This document shows positions 3,858-30,319 of a DNA stretch of 37,022 nt, in pieces. The DNA is taken from NCBI GenBank assembly GCA_902777385.1, contig CACYTP010000025.1:1-37022 (forward strand), in the 5' to 3' direction. The translations under genes and the position numbers were made by a program. The notes below the pieces were generated by a model. It saw nothing but the letters and a program-made list of their open reading frames with translations, was not told the DNA's origin and ran no database searches. Within the stretch, counting starts at the first letter, position 1; each line of letters starts with the position of its first letter. The DNA comes from an uncultured bacterium. GTDB taxonomy: Bacteria > Cyanobacteriota > Vampirovibrionia > Gastranaerophilales > Gastranaerophilaceae.

Positions 3858-4928
3858 TTACTTAGTTTCAATGTATTCCATATTAGGAGCATAATCAACA
3901 TCACTGTTGATATTAATTTTGTTTAATATGTTAGCACGTTTTTTGCGGAATAACATATCAACAAAAGCTTCCAGTCTGGTAACAAAACCTGCTTCTCCGG
4001 TTTGTTCATCTATGGTTAAATTGATGATAGGTTTGTTAAATTGTTTTGCTTTTCTTACAATTTTTTCAACCATGAGGGAATCCGGCCCGCAGCCAAATGC
4101 GTTAAGGGCAATTATACCGTCAATTCTGTTATCTTTCAAATAATGTCCGGCAGTACCAGTCATTTCAAACTCGTTTGCCCAATATAGTTTTTCACACAAG
4201 GTATTTATACCTTCACTCATTTGTTCACGAGATAGTTGAAGTGAAGTATATACCTTGACATCCATAGCTTCAAGCTTATCAATAATCTTCATACATGCTC
4301 TGTCATCATATATATTGTATCCATGAGAAACTAATGCAATTGATATAGGATATTCTTTTGTATTATTTTCTATCAAAACTTTGCCCTGTAGTGCATAATT
4401 TAAAGCTTTTTTATAGCTCATACCGGATTTAGCCATAATGTGGAAATTATTAAAAGTCCTCCAGCCTGCTTTAGATGCCGTTTTAATCTTATCCATATCA
4501 GTAATGCCGAAAGGTTTGACAGCCTGAGCCAAAAATTCATATAAACCTTGTTTCTTTTCGGATTTGTCAATAGTTGCTTCAATCATTGTGAATGGTTGTT
4601 TTACGACATTTCTGATTAAATCGGGAAGTCCTCTTATTTTAGAGCAGTTGTAAATCTTTGGAGCTATAGACTGAATAGATGGAACAAAGATTTTATCAAC
4701 TCCTTTGTTTAAAAGGTTTAGGATATGTCCTACATAAATTTTAATAGGCAGGCATGTCTCGGTAACTACAAGTGCTGAACCATCAGACATGGTCTGTTTG
4801 GTAGTAACATCAGATAAAATAATCTTAATTCCGAGAGCATTAAAAAATCCAAAATAGAACGGATAGTTATGGTAAAAATTCATAGCTCTTGGTATCCCTA
4901 TAACCATTTCTTTTGTTTCAGCCTGCAT
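3858..4928 (-). CDS. Stand-alone DUF2229 / acyl-CoA dehydratase activase-related protein
   Basis: This 356-residue soluble protein opens with KEMVIGIPRAMNFYHNYPFY, then has ETCLPIKIYVGHI (about 56-68) and NAFGCGPDSLMVEK (about 274-287). These are hallmarks of the DUF2229 / COG3580-3581 family, whose cysteines resemble those of 2-hydroxyacyl-CoA dehydratase components. Family members are often one large protein with ASKHA ATPase activase domains plus DUF2229; here only the DUF2229 part is present and no activase gene lies beside it. Conserved cysteines are visible in ETCLP and FGCGP, suggesting an Fe-S cluster. The function of such single-domain proteins is unknown. GGGAG lies about 12 bases before the ATG. 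Confidence 0.75.
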   Translation of the reverse strand: MQAETKEMVIGIPRAMNFYHNYPFYFGFFNALGIKIILSDVTTKQTMSDGSALVVTETCLPIKIYVGHILNLLNKGVDKIFVPSIQSIAPKIYNCSKIRGLPDLIRNVVKQPFTMIEATIDKSEKKQGLYEFLAQAVKPFGITDMDKIKTASKAGWRTFNNFHIMAKSGMSYKKALNYALQGKVLIENNTKEYPISIALVSHGYNIYDDRACMKIIDKLEAMDVKVYTSLQLSREQMSEGINTLCEKLYWANEFEMTGTAGHYLKDNRIDGIIALNAFGCGPDSLMVEKIVRKAKQFNKPIINLTIDEQTGEAGFVTRLEAFVDMLFRKKRANILNKININSDVDYAPNMEYIETK

Positions 4929-7120: not shown

Positions 7121-8776
7121 CTAGTATGGTATTCTATAAGCAACCTTTAGTCCGAGCTCGTAATTATTATCTGAAGATTCGTTATCTTTTATATTTGTTA
7201 TTCCGGCATGTAAACCTATATTAAAATCTTTGATGTCATATCCTGCATTAAGTTCTGCATATCTCATTTTCATATTACCGGTGTCAATTGCACCTGCTTC
7301 TAAACTTGCAAATATATTCTTTCCAGGATTTATATAACTGCCTTCAAATGATATGTATTTGGTATCACTTGGTGCAGCTCCGTTTTGTGCAACTCTGTTT
7401 ATGGCACCGATTATACTGGCATTAACTCTTTGCCCGTCATTCCAGCCTTTTGAAATTTCTGTAATTAACCCTGCAGTACCCTTTACGGCTTCAGCATTAT
7501 TATCTGTTGGCGATGTGTAGTCATATATTCCGGCAACTGGAGCAATCGTCAGATTAAATTGTTTCTGAGGCTTATTAACAAGATTAATACCATATTGTGC
7601 TGCAATACCGCATTTTGAATTATCGTATTCAAAGTCTATGTCCCAGCCCTTACCGATATTCAAAAGAGGATTATCCTCGGTAGCTGTTGTATCATCAGCA
7701 AGCGATACTTCGCTTTCCTGTTGAGATTGCTTATCTGTCCTATTATTAGATAGCAGGTTGTCTTTTTTACGATTTACCAAGTCTATTTTAAATTTCATTT
7801 GACTTTTTTGTATTGTTTCGCCTGTTTTCTCATCTTTAGTAACGACGGTACGTCTTGTCAAATCTGCACCTATATTGGTGTCTTTGTGCAGTATTGTGAT
7901 ATGTTGATCATGAATTTGGTTACTGTTGGGGTAAAAATTCGAATCAATACCTGCACCAAGTGTTATTTTATTACTGTCAAATCTGGTATTTATACTAATA
8001 CTGCCCATTTTTGAGGTTTCGGAGGAAAGCTGTTCAGAATTATCAGCTGCAGGGACATCGCTTTCATCTTTTTTCGGTGCTGAAGTTGGATCCGTTGTCT
8101 TGGTTGATGCAGTATCCAAGTCTTTTGGTTCTGTAGTATCTGAATCTGATTCAAAATCGAACTCAAATGAATTCCCTGTATATTTATTATGTTCATATCC
8201 ATAAGAAGCACTTGCTGTAATTCCGAATGTTTTATTTTTATTTTGCCACTGATTATTTACTATTGCGTGAAACGTGTTGGTTTGTGTACCTTTAGCTCGT
8301 TCTACTGATGTATAAATGTTTCCTTGAATTAATCCTGATTCGGGCATTTCTTCTGTTAAATTATCAATATGACTTTGCCCGATGTTATCTATATCGTCAA
8401 CTGTATTGACCAAATCGTTGACATCTTCCAACCCTTCGGTTTCTGATTCCGATAAATTTGCTTTTTGAGTAAGCTTGTTTTGTGTGGAAACTAATTTATT
8501 GTATGTATTATTAACAACTCTCGTCAGATTAGTTGCACCTTTTTCCCTTGTCTTATGAGTAGTACCATGGGTATTACTTTTTTTCGTATCATCTGTTTTT
8601 TCTACAGAAAGTCCTTTAATAGGTTCATCTTGTTGTTCAGGAGATTTGCCGATTGGTATGGTTATCCCTGCTTTTTTTAGTATTTGTTCTGATTCTTTAC
8701 AAACTTTTTCCCCATAGAGTTTGTAGCTTTCAGCGTAATTTTGAGCTATACCGTTTTCAATTTTTTCAATCCCCAT
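7121..8776 (-). CDS. Probable outer-membrane beta-barrel protein, no signal peptide visible
   Basis: The 551-residue protein has a helical, polar first third (to about residue 150) with many Thr, Lys and Glu. The rest is a series of amphipathic strands with alternating polar and hydrophobic residues (FGITASASYGYEH, ISINTRFDSNKITLGAG, FNIGLHAGITNI). It ends VAYRIPY, with the terminal aromatic residue expected of barrels inserted by BamA. Acidic low-complexity loops rich in Asp, Ser and Thr lie between strands, at about 205-245 and 345-370. The N-terminus MGIEKIENGIAQNYAES has no Sec signal, which is odd for an outer-membrane protein. It is divergent from the LdpA-like gene. AAGGG lies about 11 bases before the ATG. 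A secreted or cytoplasmic beta-rich protein is the alternative. Confidence 0.55.
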   Translation of the reverse strand: MGIEKIENGIAQNYAESYKLYGEKVCKESEQILKKAGITIPIGKSPEQQDEPIKGLSVEKTDDTKKSNTHGTTHKTREKGATNLTRVVNNTYNKLVSTQNKLTQKANLSESETEGLEDVNDLVNTVDDIDNIGQSHIDNLTEEMPESGLIQGNIYTSVERAKGTQTNTFHAIVNNQWQNKNKTFGITASASYGYEHNKYTGNSFEFDFESDSDTTEPKDLDTASTKTTDPTSAPKKDESDVPAADNSEQLSSETSKMGSISINTRFDSNKITLGAGIDSNFYPNSNQIHDQHITILHKDTNIGADLTRRTVVTKDEKTGETIQKSQMKFKIDLVNRKKDNLLSNNRTDKQSQQESEVSLADDTTATEDNPLLNIGKGWDIDFEYDNSKCGIAAQYGINLVNKPQKQFNLTIAPVAGIYDYTSPTDNNAEAVKGTAGLITEISKGWNDGQRVNASIIGAINRVAQNGAAPSDTKYISFEGSYINPGKNIFASLEAGAIDTGNMKMRYAELNAGYDIKDFNIGLHAGITNIKDNESSDNNYELGLKVAYRIPY

Positions 8777-8904: not shown

Positions 8905-8920
8905 TGCTAAAATCAGAGTA
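8905..8920 (+). promoter_or_regulatory. Extended -10 promoter at the LdpA-like start codon
   Basis: TGCTAAAAT (8905-8913) fits an extended -10 element and there is no convincing -35 box. The predicted transcript start, about 8919-8921, coincides with ATG 8920, and no Shine-Dalgarno precedes that ATG. Confidence 0.45.
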
Positions 8921-9876
8921 TGTTATCGAATATTTTACAGGCAAAAAAATGTTTTAAACTTGTATGCGGTGCAGGAAATGAAGATATTGATGAGGTAGAA
9001 AAGCTTGTCTATCTTTATTCAAAAGCCGGATGTAATTTTTTTGATTTATCTGCAAATATTGATGTTGTGAGGGCTGCAAAAAGAGGGCTTGAACTTTCAG
9101 GTGTAACAGAAAACAGATATTTGTGTGTAAGTGTCGGTATTGCAGGTGACCCACACATAAATAAAGCAGAAATAAATGATAAATTGTGTACAAAATGTGA
9201 CAAGTGCAGAAAAATGTGTCCTCAAAATGCCATATTTGAGGATATCCGTTCTAATTATGTGAAAAGTAAACGTTGTATAGGCTGCGGCAGATGTGAAAAA
9301 TTTTGTACTAATAATGCTATAAGTATGTATTCAAAAGAAATAGATTTGGAAGAAGTTTTACCGCCTATTATTTCTGAAGGGATTGACTGTTTAGAGTTTC
9401 ATGCATTAGTTGAAGACGATTATGAAGTGATGAATAAGTGGCAGGTGTTGAATAGTTTGTATAGCGGTATGCTCAGTATCTGCATAGACAGATCAATTTT
9501 GGGAAATATGAAAATTCTGAACCGTGTTAAAGAAATGATTAAAAACAGAAATCCATATACAACAATAGTTCAAGCGGACGGAGCTCCTATGTCAGGTGGA
9601 GAAGATAATTATAAGACTACTTTGCAGGCTGTAGCAATGGCAGAAATAATAGAAAATGCTGATTTGCCGGTTTATGTACTCATATCAGGCGGTACAAATT
9701 CTAAAACTTTAGAACTTGCTAAGATGTGTGATTTGCATCCGTCAGGTGTTGCAATCGGTTCTTATGCAAGAAAAATTGTAAGAAATTATATCCAAAGAGC
9801 TGATTTCTATAAAAATCAGCAAATACTTGATGAAGCATTAAGTGTTGCAAAAAATCTTGTTAATTCCTGTATGTAA
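8920..9876 (+). CDS. ldpA: LdpA-family 4Fe-4S protein (circadian redox-input homologue)
   Basis: The 318-residue protein matches the layout of LdpA, the Fe-S protein that adjusts circadian period to light and redox state in Synechococcus. The N-terminal part (FKLVCGAGNED, YLYSKAGCNFFDLSAN, AAKRGLEL) resembles a TIM-barrel-like LdpA N-domain, followed by GDPH at 76-79. Two 4Fe-4S motifs follow: Cys 90/93/96/100 and Cys 119/122/125/129. The C-terminal domain has QADGAPMSGG (219-227), ISGGTNSKT (255-263) and GVAIGSYARK (276-285), which are typical LdpA blocks. In this non-phototrophic setting it more likely reads intracellular redox state than light; that is inference. No other clock gene is nearby. 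The main alternative is a related ferredoxin-domain protein of unknown role. Confidence 0.8.
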   Translation: MLSNILQAKKCFKLVCGAGNEDIDEVEKLVYLYSKAGCNFFDLSANIDVVRAAKRGLELSGVTENRYLCVSVGIAGDPHINKAEINDKLCTKCDKCRKMCPQNAIFEDIRSNYVKSKRCIGCGRCEKFCTNNAISMYSKEIDLEEVLPPIISEGIDCLEFHALVEDDYEVMNKWQVLNSLYSGMLSICIDRSILGNMKILNRVKEMIKNRNPYTTIVQADGAPMSGGEDNYKTTLQAVAMAEIIENADLPVYVLISGGTNSKTLELAKMCDLHPSGVAIGSYARKIVRNYIQRADFYKNQQILDEALSVAKNLVNSCM

Positions 9877-13710: not shown

Positions 13711-15702
13711 CTATTCATGACAGCCAAAAGCAATGGTAAGATGCTCTCTCGGATTTACGGCAGAAATTTTATAACCCTTAGGATCTACAAGGTAAGCAAA
13801 CTCGTCACCTGTAGTCTGGAATAAGCCCATTGTACCCGATAATGCAGTTCTTGTTACATCAACAGGGGCTTTGACAGTTTCCCAGATGCCATCGCCGAAG
13901 CTTCTTGCAGCAGCACCAAATTTTCCTTGAGCGATATGACCAAGAGTGTAGCCTGCATCGTTCGATACGTTTTCAACAGCATTACCAAGGTTAGTGATAA
14001 CACCACCTACAGTTCTGCCGGTTACACCAACAAGTGAACCTGCCAATGTGAACGGCATTTCAAGTAATCTTGCAACAGGGTTAACCTGATTTGATTTATT
14101 AACTTGTGCTTGCAAGATTTGTTTAGGTAAGTTTGCATTATGGCAGCCATCAGTGATACTTGTGAAGGATAGTTTTAATGCACCCTTATTGCATCCTGAA
14201 GGTCTGATAACTTCAACGACCTGACCTGTTACAGTTGAACCTATAGGGTATGTTACACCGTTAAGAGTAATTTCTTCCAATGTGTTTGCCCTGAAGTATT
14301 GACCGACGTGAGAAGATTTTGCCGTAAGCTGATCTATCATCTTAATTTTTAGTGTCGGAATGTCAACTACTTCGGAATTCTCAACAAAAGCCTGTTTGTC
14401 GAATTGAGTAGATATAGGACAAGCTGCGTTTGCTGTTTGCGGATTTGTATCATAACCTAACGCTACACGAACGGTCTGAAGCATAGATGCAATATCTGCA
14501 CGGGTGGCTTCTCTGTTCGGATAAATCATGTTTGGATTAGGAGTGTCTTTTAAAGCACCATTTTGAAGTGATTTTGCAATAGGAATTCTTGCCCAGCCCG
14601 GAACGGATTTTCCGTCAGCGTAATGCGAAAGAATTTCATCCGCTTTACACTTATCCATATCGCAATCCATACCTTTAGCAATAGAAGTTAAAGCTTCGGC
14701 ACGGGTAACACGTTTATTAGGTTCAAATTTGCCGTTAGGATATCCTGCTAACAAATCTTTATCAACGGCTTTTGCAATCGCTGCATTTGCCCAATTGTTG
14801 GTAGGTACGTCAGAGAAAATTCTTTTTGTAGGCATACCGCAATCGTCAAGGTTAAAGCCTTTAACGAGCATTGTAGCAAATTCTGCACGGGTGATATCTC
14901 TGCCCGGTCTGAACATGCCGTCAGGGTATCCGACAACAACATTGTTTACAGCAAGTTTATCTATGTTACAGGATGCCCAATAGCTGTTCGGAACATCAGG
15001 AAACATTCCTCCTGAAGTTGGTGCAGCAGCTCCTATCGGCAGCCCTTCAAGTGCCGTTTTTAAATCAAACGGTACCATAGATTTTTTGATGGCTTTCATT
15101 GAGTGATTAGTTTGTACATCAACTGGAGTTCCGTTGCCGTCCATCAATCTGTCATTTCTTCCGACATTAACCCCGTTAAATCTAGTAGGATCATCTCCAA
15201 TGCATGGAAGTTGAGCGGCAGCACCGGTAATTTGACCTTGTGAAGAAATAGTTGTGCCGCTAATTGCTGCATTCATATTAGGGGCTGAACCATAGAAGCC
15301 ATTGTTAATGCCAATAGCGGCATTTTCGGTAGAGAGGATAGAATTAGCCTGTTCCCCTACATAGTTGTTAGTCCCGTAGATTGCATTCGGGTATCCATAT
15401 ACCTGTTTCATGTCAGCACGGGACGGTTTCCCTGAGCCGGGGCAAACTGCACATGCCTGATTGTCAGATAAAATATCATCATTTTGGCAATCACAGTCAT
15501 CGAATGCTTTTTGGCAATCGTTGCATTTAGGTGTTTGCGTACATGGACATGCCGGACCTGTAATAACAGGTAACGGTTCTGCACACGGAGCTTGTGAAAC
15601 CGGCTGTTGTGTGCACGGACAAGCTGCCATAGCCTGATTCAAGGAACAGGTTGCAATTCCGACGGCAATCGCAGCTGCCACAGTAAGTTTTTTAATTGTC
15701 AT
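13711..15702 (-). CDS. Secreted SLH-domain protein with cysteine-rich N-terminus
   Basis: The 663-residue protein starts with a Sec signal peptide (MTIKKLTVAAAIAVGIAT... to NQAMA, cleavage near 26). Residues 28-87 contain 11 cysteines, several as CPC or CxxC (ACPCTQ, CNDC, CAVC). Three SLH domains follow at about 233-283, 295-345 and 357-412, each with the YPDG/TRAE signature (VGYPDGMFRPGRDITRAEF). SLH domains anchor proteins to peptidoglycan-linked polymers, here probably in the periplasm or linked to the outer membrane. The C-terminal 240 residues hold a beta-rich segment and glycine-rich helices (GRTVGGVITNLGNAVENV) of unknown role. The RBS is AAGGAGG before ATG 15702. It has its own terminator. 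Confidence 0.85.
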   Translation of the reverse strand: MTIKKLTVAAAIAVGIATCSLNQAMAACPCTQQPVSQAPCAEPLPVITGPACPCTQTPKCNDCQKAFDDCDCQNDDILSDNQACAVCPGSGKPSRADMKQVYGYPNAIYGTNNYVGEQANSILSTENAAIGINNGFYGSAPNMNAAISGTTISSQGQITGAAAQLPCIGDDPTRFNGVNVGRNDRLMDGNGTPVDVQTNHSMKAIKKSMVPFDLKTALEGLPIGAAAPTSGGMFPDVPNSYWASCNIDKLAVNNVVVGYPDGMFRPGRDITRAEFATMLVKGFNLDDCGMPTKRIFSDVPTNNWANAAIAKAVDKDLLAGYPNGKFEPNKRVTRAEALTSIAKGMDCDMDKCKADEILSHYADGKSVPGWARIPIAKSLQNGALKDTPNPNMIYPNREATRADIASMLQTVRVALGYDTNPQTANAACPISTQFDKQAFVENSEVVDIPTLKIKMIDQLTAKSSHVGQYFRANTLEEITLNGVTYPIGSTVTGQVVEVIRPSGCNKGALKLSFTSITDGCHNANLPKQILQAQVNKSNQVNPVARLLEMPFTLAGSLVGVTGRTVGGVITNLGNAVENVSNDAGYTLGHIAQGKFGAAARSFGDGIWETVKAPVDVTRTALSGTMGLFQTTGDEFAYLVDPKGYKISAVNPREHLTIAFGCHE

Positions 15703-25932: not shown

Positions 25933-27078
25933 ATGAAATATTGGGCAAAGGGATTAATGTCAGCGGTTGTGTTGATGCTTGGAATAGTTCCTGCAATGGC
26001 ATTTCAGTTTCCTGATGTTGATGAAAATCACTGGGCAGCAAAACAAATTGACATATTATCAGATCAGGGTGTAATTGTCGGTTATCCTGACGGTACATTT
26101 AAGCCTGACGAAAATGTTACAAGAGCTGAGTTTGCTTCAATGGCTATTAAGGCTTTAGGACAGGAACATACAAAGGTTATTCAGCCTGTTGAATTTACGG
26201 ATATTACATCTGCATTCTGGGCTTATGATGCTATACAGAAAGCTTTGTATTTTGACTTGATTTCAAGTGACAAAACATTATTCAGACCTGATGATAATGT
26301 TTCAAGAGAGGAAGCAACGACGGTAGCGGTTAATGCTCTTACTACCGAGCAGATTAGTCCGGCAAAAGCTCTGGAAGTTTTGGCAAAATATTCTGATTTA
26401 GAGTCTATTCCGAATGATTTTTTGATTCCTGCAGGAAAATCTGAAATATTGAATATGATTGTTGTAGCTCCCGGTAGTGAGAAACCGGCTTTAGAACCGT
26501 TAAGACCGGCAACCAGAGCTGAGGTAGCTGCTATTTTATTCAATATGAGAGAGCAGGCAAAACTAAATCCTAATGCGAAATTAGCTGAGGCTATGCGTAA
26601 AAAAACAGGTAACGGGTATGTGATTGAAGATGCTACAATACAAGGTAGTATAGGTACTATTCCTGCAGGTGCAATTTTCCCTGTAAAAATTACGAAGTAT
26701 GTTTCAACTCAAACTTCGACTGCAGGAGATGTATATGTAGGTGCGGCTCCGCAAAACTATACGACAAAGGATCACTACATTCTTGTTTACGAAAATTCGA
26801 ACTTCAAAGGGCAGCTTCTTGATGTAAGAAGCGGTAAATGGTTTGTTAGAAACGGCGTTTTGGTATTTGAAAATTCACTAATTACAACGTATAATGATCA
26901 GACTATCGAGTTTAAAGCGACAGGCGAATTGCACAAGGACAGAAACTGGTTTATGAAGTTTGTAAGAGCTACATTGAAAGGCGAAAAATTGGAAGCTTCT
27001 CCTAGTGACGTTGTCTATATGAGATTATTAAAACCGGTTAAAATTGATTTAACAAACGGTTGGATATACGAAGAATAG
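25933..27078 (+). CDS. Secreted SLH-domain protein, first gene of a signalling operon
   Basis: The 381-residue protein has a signal peptide (MKYWAKGLMSAVVLMLGIVP, cleavage after AMA at 23). Three SLH domains follow at about 25-75, 88-138 and 152-207, with VGYPDGTFKPDENVTRAEF as the clearest signature; the third is degenerate. Residues 210-381 form a beta-rich domain (IQGSIGTIPAGAIFPVKI, GQLLDVRSGKWFVRNG) of unknown function. SLH domains bind peptidoglycan-linked polymers, so it probably sits in the periplasm attached to the wall. The RBS AGGAGAG precedes ATG 25933. A TPR gene follows after 9 bp, with a kinase, a regulator and a secreted protein beyond, all on the same strand. It could be the sensory or structural partner of the kinase. 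Confidence 0.85.
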   Translation: MKYWAKGLMSAVVLMLGIVPAMAFQFPDVDENHWAAKQIDILSDQGVIVGYPDGTFKPDENVTRAEFASMAIKALGQEHTKVIQPVEFTDITSAFWAYDAIQKALYFDLISSDKTLFRPDDNVSREEATTVAVNALTTEQISPAKALEVLAKYSDLESIPNDFLIPAGKSEILNMIVVAPGSEKPALEPLRPATRAEVAAILFNMREQAKLNPNAKLAEAMRKKTGNGYVIEDATIQGSIGTIPAGAIFPVKITKYVSTQTSTAGDVYVGAAPQNYTTKDHYILVYENSNFKGQLLDVRSGKWFVRNGVLVFENSLITTYNDQTIEFKATGELHKDRNWFMKFVRATLKGEKLEASPSDVVYMRLLKPVKIDLTNGWIYEE

Positions 27079-28011: not shown

Positions 28012-28074
28012 TGCTATTTATTGCGACTTTGTAACGTATTTGTTTTAAAGTCAAAAATAAATTATTATTATGTT

Positions 28075-29661
28075 ATGAAAGATTCAAGGATTATTTTAGT
28101 TGATGATGAAAAAATGGTTACTTCAGCTTTTAAAACACTGTTGAAAGTTGAAGGGTATGCTAATATAGAATGTTTTAATGTGCCGGCTGAAGCTTTGGAA
28201 TATTTGAAAAATAATACTCCCGATATAATTGTGTCAGACTTCTTAATGCCGGAGATGAACGGTTTGGAATTTTTGACGGAAGCAAAAAAAATGTATCCGG
28301 AAGTCAGTATGATTATGCTTACCGGATATGCAGACAAAGAAAATGCGATTAGAGCGATTAATGAAATAGGTCTGTATAAATATATAGAAAAGCCGTGGGA
28401 CAATGATGACTTATTGATAAATATACGAAACGGTATTGAAAGAAGTCATTTGTTGGCAGGATTAAGAGAAAAAATAGCTGAGCTTGAAGAAGCAAAGAAA
28501 CAGCTTGAAATATATTCAAATGATTTGGAAAAGCTTGTTGCGGAAAGAACAAAAGATCTTACAATTGCAAACAGCAAGTTGTCAGGAATAATCAGTTATT
28601 GTGCTGATGGAATAATTATTCTTGATGATTCGGGAAATATTCTTCAGGCAAATCCTGCTTGTGAAAATATGACCGGTTTAAGTGAAGCCTCATTAAAAGA
28701 AATGAAGTTTCAGGAAGTAGCTTATGTTGCAAACAGAAGAGGAAATAATGCCTCACAAAATACTAACGGGGGTATATTCGGTTTAAATAAAGACACAAAT
28801 GACGTGCTTGTTAAGGATTGTGTTATAATTAACAAACTGGGTGGTGCGGAAATTCCTGTAGAAATTAACTTTGCTGCAATATATTCTGAAGGTGCCGATA
28901 ACAGATATGTTGGTGTAATTCGTGATGTAAGTAAACAAAAAGAAAATGAACGATTGCGTGATGATTTTATTGCAACCCTTACACATGATTTAAGAACTCC
29001 ACTGCTGGCTGCAATTCAGACTTTAAAATTCTTTTTGGACGGTTCGCTTGGTGAGGTTGAAGAAAAACAAGCTGTATTGCTTTCTACAATGCTTCAGAGT
29101 AACGAAGATTTGCTTGGGCTTGTAAATGCCTTGTTAGAAGTTTACAGGTTTGAAAGCGGGAAACTCTCTCTGTGCAAAACAGTATTTCCTGTGAAAGATT
29201 TAGTAATACAATGCTATGATGAATTAAAACCACTTGCGGATAAGAAAAATATAGACTTCAAACTTGTTTGCGAAATGGATGATACTACAGAAATAGAGGC
29301 AGATAAATCCGAAATAAAAAGAGTAATGATTAATCTGTGCGGTAATGCTGTTAATTACACAAATAAGGGTGGTGTTATTGAAATCATAGCAAAAGCTCAG
29401 TCCGGAGATTTTATATTTTCTGTTTCCGATAACGGTAATGGTATTCCTCAGGAAGATATTCCTAAATTGTTTAACAGATTTTCTCAGGGAACTACAAGAA
29501 AACGCTCTACAGGTACCGGATTAGGTTTATATTTGTCAAGACAAATTGTTGAAGCTCACGGGGGTAAAATCTGGTTGAACAGTAAGCTTAACAAGGGTAG
29601 TGAATTTACATTTTTACTTACAAATGTTGTAAAAGAAGAAAGACAGGTCGTAAATGGTTAG
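28075..29661 (+). CDS. Hybrid sensor histidine kinase: REC-coiled coil-PAS-HisKA-HATPase
   Basis: I start it at ATG 28075 (MKDSRIILVDDEK) because the upstream in-frame stretch from 28021 is not REC-like. No RBS is obvious. The product is 528 residues. An N-terminal receiver domain (about 5-120) has D10-D11, phospho-acceptor D55 (VSDFLMPEMNG) and K106 (YIEKPW). A coiled-coil linker (130-170) leads to a PAS domain (about 171-290: SYCADGIIILDDSGNILQAN). HisKA has H304 in THDLRTPL. The N box (NLCGNAVNYT) and G boxes (NGNGIP, GTGLGLYLSR) are complete. It is soluble, with no membrane helix. The stop overlaps the next gene's start by 8 bp, so kinase and regulator are coupled. Confidence 0.93.
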   Translation: MKDSRIILVDDEKMVTSAFKTLLKVEGYANIECFNVPAEALEYLKNNTPDIIVSDFLMPEMNGLEFLTEAKKMYPEVSMIMLTGYADKENAIRAINEIGLYKYIEKPWDNDDLLINIRNGIERSHLLAGLREKIAELEEAKKQLEIYSNDLEKLVAERTKDLTIANSKLSGIISYCADGIIILDDSGNILQANPACENMTGLSEASLKEMKFQEVAYVANRRGNNASQNTNGGIFGLNKDTNDVLVKDCVIINKLGGAEIPVEINFAAIYSEGADNRYVGVIRDVSKQKENERLRDDFIATLTHDLRTPLLAAIQTLKFFLDGSLGEVEEKQAVLLSTMLQSNEDLLGLVNALLEVYRFESGKLSLCKTVFPVKDLVIQCYDELKPLADKKNIDFKLVCEMDDTTEIEADKSEIKRVMINLCGNAVNYTNKGGVIEIIAKAQSGDFIFSVSDNGNGIPQEDIPKLFNRFSQGTTRKRSTGTGLGLYLSRQIVEAHGGKIWLNSKLNKGSEFTFLLTNVVKEERQVVNG

Positions 29662-30319
29662 GGTGCTTATAATTGAAGATCAGGATATGGCAAGGGTTGC
29701 TCTCTCTGTAGTATTAAGTAAAAACGATAATATTGAAATCGCTGACATGGCTGTTGACGGTTTGGAGGGAGTTGAAAAGGCTTTAAGACTCAGACCTGAT
29801 CTTGTGATTATGGATATAGGGTTACCTTCTATTGACGGTATTGAAGCTACCAGACGTATAAAAGAGGCTGATTCTAAAGTAAAAGTATTGATGTACACTT
29901 CCAGAGAAGATGAGAATGACATATTTGATGCTTTCAAGGCCGGTGCAGACGGATATATAACCAAGGGGGCTACTGTTGAGCAAACAATATCTGCAGTATT
30001 GGCTGTAAGTGAAGGTACAGGATGGCTTGATCCGGCTATTGCAAAAGTTGTGTTGACGAATATCAGAAAAAGTACATCAACTGAAGGCAGACGTGGTGAA
30101 ATTAATTATAAACTCGGTAAAAATCTGTATGGTTTGACCGAGAGAGAAATGGATGTTTTGGCTCTAATTGTTGATGGGCTTACTAATCCCCAAATTTCAG
30201 ATAAACTTTGTATTACAATTTCTACTACTAAAACACATGTTCACAGTATTCTTCAAAAGTTGTATGTAAGAACAAGGGCTAAAGCTACTGCAATTGCAAT
30301 GAATGAAGGTTTGGTATAG
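29654..30319 (+). CDS. NarL/FixJ-family response regulator
   Basis: The 221-residue protein has a receiver domain at 3-120 with E8-D9, phospho-acceptor D54 (IMDIGLPSIDG), a Thr in MYTSRE and Lys in YITKGA. The C-terminal LuxR-type HTH at about 158-221 (LTEREMDVLALIVDGLTNPQ, ISTTKTHVHSILQKL) binds DNA. This is a standard phosphorylation-controlled transcription factor and the presumed partner of the overlapping kinase. The ATG lies inside the kinase's last codons. Its output HTH is LuxR-type and not the winged helix of RpaA. Confidence 0.95.
   Translation: MVRVLIIEDQDMARVALSVVLSKNDNIEIADMAVDGLEGVEKALRLRPDLVIMDIGLPSIDGIEATRRIKEADSKVKVLMYTSREDENDIFDAFKAGADGYITKGATVEQTISAVLAVSEGTGWLDPAIAKVVLTNIRKSTSTEGRRGEINYKLGKNLYGLTEREMDVLALIVDGLTNPQISDKLCITISTTKTHVHSILQKLYVRTRAKATAIAMNEGLV

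Follow-up and report, generated by a model that had tools for sequence, protein, structure and literature searches.

What does a protein known from the cyanobacterial clock do in a gut bacterium of a non-photosynthetic order? Gastranaerophilales are an order in the non-photosynthetic Vampirovibrionia (Melainabacteria), phylum Cyanobacteriota. An earlier note on a 37,022-nucleotide stretch of DNA from this order (the window, which is contig C25 in G000, an assembly of 2.32 Mb) claimed a homolog of LdpA and offered two roles for it, an ancestral redox-sensing job or a metabolic enzyme.

The window gene is a member of the LdpA family

The gene lies at positions 8920..9876 on the plus strand, begins with ATG and encodes 318 amino acids. 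The open reading frame call, Pfam and NCBIfam profiles, a structural model and a tree mark its product as an LdpA-family protein of the B-type described below. Residues 151-315 match Pfam LdpA_C (PF12617, E = 2.7e-21, 76.4 bits against a cut-off of 22.2), and the ferredoxin part matches LdpA_Fe-S-bd (PF25160, 32.1 bits against a cut-off of 27.6). The full-length NCBIfam profile CircClkLdpA (NF045992) covers residues 6-301 (E = 4.5e-48) with a score of 164.1 bits, below its equivalog cut-off of 450 bits. Two complete CxxCxxCxxxC motifs precede LdpA_C at the positions given earlier (Cys 90/93/96/100 and 119/122/125/129). All eight cluster cysteines are invariant in an alignment of 29 B-type sequences and are conserved across both A- and B-types, with the sole exception of Cys93, which is absent in some non-phototrophic classes. 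The stretches QADGAPMSGG, ISGGTNSKT and GVAIGSYARK, likewise reported in the earlier note, are all present and rank among the best-conserved of the family. Identity to oxygenic LdpA is about 32% over 315 columns, far above chance.

Many Fer4-type profiles match residues 83-140, which would suit a generic ferredoxin-domain protein that matches LdpA by chance. We consider this next to impossible: the LdpA_C match falls outside the ferredoxin part and rules such a protein out, and the whole-length LdpA profile is the best NCBIfam match by a wide margin. Judged by its sequence, membership of the window gene in LdpA is secure at the family level.

Its standing as an ortholog of clock LdpA is unsupported. 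For the Kai oscillator that such orthology implies, profile searches of the window's genome found neither KaiB nor a KaiC-sized PF06745 (KaiC/RadA) protein; the PF06745 matches there consist of two frames whose lengths, 457 and 346 aa, fit RadA and RecA respectively, plus a third, weak match. The photosystem reaction center (PF00124) was not found in the genome by profile search either. The earlier remarks that no kai gene is in view and that nothing suggests photosynthesis extend from the window to the assembly for these families.

The predicted fold is a TIM barrel with an inserted ferredoxin

An AlphaFold2 model of the window protein, built with 28 relatives in the input (pLDDT 91.9, pTM 0.89), is a TIM barrel in which all eight strands alternate with helices and close into a barrel, and DSSP places a two-cluster ferredoxin between strand 3 and helix 3. 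This insert (residues 81-138, 9160..9333, plus strand, as are all features of the gene) is also delimited by Pfam Fer4 families and the invariant cysteine columns. Profiles, model and conservation place conserved K13 and D42 on barrel strands 1-2 (8950..9051). This first barrel unit has a weak match to DUF561/Ycf23 (PF04481, residues 2-56, 22.4 bits with the cut-off at 21.6), a likeness limited to 55 residues, with the Fe-S insert outside the match. Model and conservation further mark strand 4 (9388..9402), with invariant E159 and H161, and the C-terminal barrel half (9562..9768), with QxDGxPxSG on strand 6, SGGTN on strand 7 and a GxxARK-type loop after strand 8. In the model, this half is similar to the end where ribulose-phosphate-binding barrels hold their phosphate, and may likewise bind phosphate.

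The best structural neighbors found with VIA-align are hexulose-6-phosphate synthase, ribulose-phosphate 3-epimerase (RPE), PseI, TrpA and IGPS (Z 16.8-16). These are effectively tied, so a specific enzyme family is not implied. Foldseek searches with the model returned many barrels as well, and a PDB sequence search with the window protein returned ferredoxin-domain matches only. The likeness to the ribulose-phosphate-binding barrels (hexulose-6-phosphate synthase, RPE, TrpA, IGPS; Z about 16-17) concerns the barrel of the predicted model, whereas identity is 10-14%, LdpA has the ferredoxin insert and no catalytic residue is matched to a known mechanism.

Sixteen of the 19 non-ferredoxin residues that are invariant in both types sit on the barrel's catalytic face, defined as the C-terminal half of the strands or the loops after them (hypergeometric p = 3e-6). 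TIM-barrel enzymes have their active sites at the C-terminal strand ends and the following loops, so catalysis is the simplest reading of this pattern. LdpA thus looks like an enzyme in the model, with fold and conserved face suggesting rather than proving catalysis. The A-type would adopt the same fold, going by its alignment with the B-type protein for which the model was built.

LdpA comprises two types

An unrooted tree of 60 sequences, with three extremely long rows excluded, divides the family into two types with support of 100/99. The A-type comprises oxygenic cyanobacteria, Vampirovibrionia family f4 and other non-phototrophic classes. The B-type comprises Gastranaerophilales, including the window protein, and homologs from surface-sugar operons; its members outside Gastranaerophilales come from Omnitrophota, Thermodesulfobacteriota, Elusimicrobiota, CPR, Anammoxibacter and some Prochlorococcus. 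A tree with cyanobacterial LdpA, as proposed earlier, assigns the gene to the second type: in this unrooted tree it does not fall with cyanobacterial LdpA.

AU tests reject a single clade of Gastranaerophilales with the A-type of their f4 class-mates (p = 0.0002). The window protein is 40-43% identical to B-type genes of other lineages, against 32-36% to the f4 proteins. The window copy is unlikely to correspond to clock LdpA by vertical descent. The AU rejection and the identities weigh against a history in which Gastranaerophilales LdpA is a divergent vertical ortholog that shifted away from ycf45, with transfer, from this LdpA or from a shared source, giving rise to the sugar-operon copies elsewhere. 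We regard this history as unlikely, although LdpA is nearly universal in the bacterial family and a grouping that unites Gastranaerophilales with the A-type and sets the sugar-operon copies apart survives the AU test (p = 0.087). The A-type branches are moreover long, so that long-branch attraction among them is possible.

Gene neighborhoods concur with the two types

The neighborhood of the genes agrees with the A/B split. A ycf45-like gene, our label for a gene with SpoIIIAA-like ATPase, PF25516 and R3H domains, adjoins A-type LdpA at 30 of 30 oxygenic and 21 of 23 non-phototrophic loci. It was seen at none of the 116 B-type loci, the window included; these are mostly from related Gastranaerophilales with some genomes counted twice, and are thus not 116 independent observations. 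The genome of the window retains its ycf45-like gene, which lies on contig C14 and does not have LdpA as a neighbor. The order ldpA then ycf45-like gene recurs across the phylum, in oxygenic and in non-phototrophic classes alike (L002-L058, L145-L164), and a literature search that covered few subscription papers found no paper mentioning both genes.

Outside Gastranaerophilales, B-type LdpA mostly occurs in a conserved operon with an HMGL-like aldolase, a HAD phosphatase, an HpaI aldolase, a KdsB-like CMP transferase and a TIGR04326 surface-carbohydrate protein, LdpA following the HMGL-like gene. At loci L068, L070-L077, L079, L080, L082 and L084 it is flanked by at least two of these partners, and a DegT aminotransferase and an MsbA-like transporter are likewise recurrent nearby. 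Two Sericytochromatia copies (L067, L069) have no such sugar genes in their vicinity. Some Prochlorococcus (L060, L181, L183, L065, L066; G223, G165, G475, G476) carry B-type LdpA in a surface-sugar cluster, with KdsB-like, HAD and HpcH-type genes close by. Searches with the A3 profile found no A-type LdpA in the near-complete Prochlorococcus-type genomes G223 and G165. A Fisher test on which we place no weight links presence of the B-type to absence of the A-type outside Gastranaerophilales (p = 1e-6, on hand-entered counts from few lineages, two of these being incomplete MAGs). PF25516 was absent in the Prochlorococcus search and equally absent from a genome with A-type LdpA, which makes its absence uninformative.

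Some Gastranaerophilales loci also carry such genes: LdpA precedes HAD and HMGL at L176 and L177, HMGL at L163, L161 and L118, and an HpcH/HpaI-like aldolase gene at L081, L139 and L130. L139 is placed beside the window protein in the tree, and its LdpA and HpcH/HpaI-like genes overlap. Most Gastranaerophilales copies lie behind a beta-lactamase-like gene or next to tilS, so the sugar role may hold for some paralogs only. At about 50 Gastranaerophilales loci (L083-L143), a few bases separate ldpA from the beta-lactamase-like (PF13354) gene upstream of it. In a fast-evolving, divergent set of Gastranaerophilaceae LdpA (L185-L199), tilS, encoding tRNA-Ile lysidine synthase, is alongside at 15 of 15 loci.

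Distribution within and beyond the phylum

A profile search detected LdpA_C (PF12617) in 377 of 386 genomes of the phylum, phototrophs and non-phototrophs alike. The earlier emphasis on LdpA outside phototrophs is accurate for this genome, but with such a spread that presence is by itself no special relic. According to a survey of 11,264 genomes, LdpA is confined to Cyanobacteria and is the sole clock input factor retained in Prochlorococcus (PMC5520375). RpaA, RpaB and NblS were earlier reported in Melainabacteria (PMC3787301, PMC4040986); the text of PMC4040986 does not mention LdpA, and our literature search, with few subscription papers covered, found no paper that connects LdpA with Melainabacteria or with a TIM barrel.

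Beyond the phylum, relatives were found in records labeled Omnitrophota, Thermodesulfobacteriota, Elusimicrobiota, Planctomycetota (Anammoxibacter) and CPR, and one Omnitrophota genome belongs to a phylum where such a relative occurs in 6 of 237 genomes. These records are mostly MAGs in which single binning errors are possible; an operon common to several phyla speaks against binning error as a general explanation. Two loci with Gastranaerophilales-like LdpA, titled Muribaculaceae (L109) and Clostridiaceae (L132), are probably mislabeled bins. Other Vampirovibrionia have KaiB-family matches, here considered candidate KaiB only, chiefly in family f43, whose genomes are 3-8 Mb (G096, G407, G410, G420, G433, G442 and others).

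A putative metabolic function

We lean toward a metabolic rather than a clock function for the window protein, with B-type LdpA, a TIM barrel with inserted ferredoxin, acting as an Fe-S enzyme that replaced the A-type in Gastranaerophilales. The predicted phosphate-binding-type barrel, with its two-cluster ferredoxin domain after strand 3, would most likely act on a small phosphorylated or keto-acid metabolite, and electrons may pass through both clusters. In Gastranaerophilales, the B-type would stand in for the ycf45-linked A-type of the remaining phylum. The aldolase, phosphatase and CMP-transferase partners of its relatives point to the synthesis of surface keto-deoxy sugars; for the window gene itself, this link is suggested by the relatives and not by its own locus. 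An enzyme family whose B-type took the place of the A-type in Gastranaerophilales is the most economical account of the homology, the predicted fold, the conserved barrel face, the two types and the neighbors of the relatives. Of the two roles in the earlier note, the barrel model, the conserved face and the relatives' neighbors favor the metabolic enzyme.

The other role supposes that Fe-S redox sensing predates the clock and that the window gene keeps such a regulatory function in the absence of Kai proteins. In its favor, the two cluster motifs are complete, and reviews call clock LdpA a redox sensor, its mechanism being unresolved (PMC13421787). The A-type has its ycf45-like neighbor in non-phototrophic classes just as it does in oxygenic cyanobacteria, which makes a role of LdpA older than the clock plausible. 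For the window gene we nevertheless consider a sensor rather improbable, as this copy is of the B-type and lacks the A-type neighbor, conservation centers not on the clusters alone but also on the barrel's catalytic face, and B-type relatives travel with biosynthetic enzymes. An ancestral sensing job suits the A-type of other non-phototrophic classes better. The enzymatic reading could tentatively be widened to all of LdpA, as an Fe-S TIM-barrel family with an undescribed metabolic reaction whose types were swapped in some lineages. The clock would then have recruited an enzyme whose activity, beyond its clusters, reports metabolic state.

The window protein shares with LdpA (light-dependent period A) of Synechococcus elongatus (NF045992, PF12617/PF25160) the order of barrel and ferredoxin, both cluster motifs and all conserved barrel motifs, a likeness judged on oxygenic LdpA sequences, with S. 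elongatus itself serving as a control match only. It differs from oxygenic and clock LdpA in its low identity, its score below the equivalog cut-off and its tree type, and its locus differs in having no ycf45-like neighbor and a host without a detected Kai clock. With the B-type genes of surface-carbohydrate operons in Omnitrophota, Thermodesulfobacteriota, Elusimicrobiota and Prochlorococcus it shares about 39-53% identity and the side of the A/B split, but it stands outside any such operon. How LdpA acts on the cyanobacterial clock is listed as an unresolved question (PMC13421787). The barrel with its conserved catalytic face, the constant ycf45-like neighbor of the A-type and the biosynthetic partners of the B-type in other phyla offer concrete hypotheses on LdpA. 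The predicted structure and the relatives' neighbors suggest that LdpA is less a dedicated component of the clock than a family of barrel-shaped Fe-S enzymes, with ties in some lineages to the making of cell-surface sugars.

The window locus

In the window, LdpA is flanked by an ORF without a family match and by a Na/Pi symporter. Aldolase, phosphatase and CMP-transferase neighbors were looked for at this locus and not found, and these flanks rule out a local sugar-gene operon. The window locus lacks the beta-lactamase-like neighbor seen with most Gastranaerophilales copies, an HMGL-like homolog used as query had no match in the window's genome, and promoter and terminator scans near the gene stayed at shuffle level. 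A 551-aa ORF (7121-8776), upstream of LdpA and divergent, has no Pfam or NCBIfam match. A DUF2229/2-hydroxyglutaryl-CoA dehydratase-like gene, assigned by Pfam (3858..4928, minus strand), also occurs close to LdpA in L085 and L139, the nearest relatives of the window gene; it is a weakly conserved neighbor with at most a putative functional link. Further along, the window encodes a hybrid sensor kinase with receiver, PAS, HisKA and HATPase domains followed by a LuxR-type response regulator (28021-30319). Two SLH-domain proteins (13711-15702 and 25933-27078) are also present, the first with a weak match to a SomB-type iron uptake porin model.
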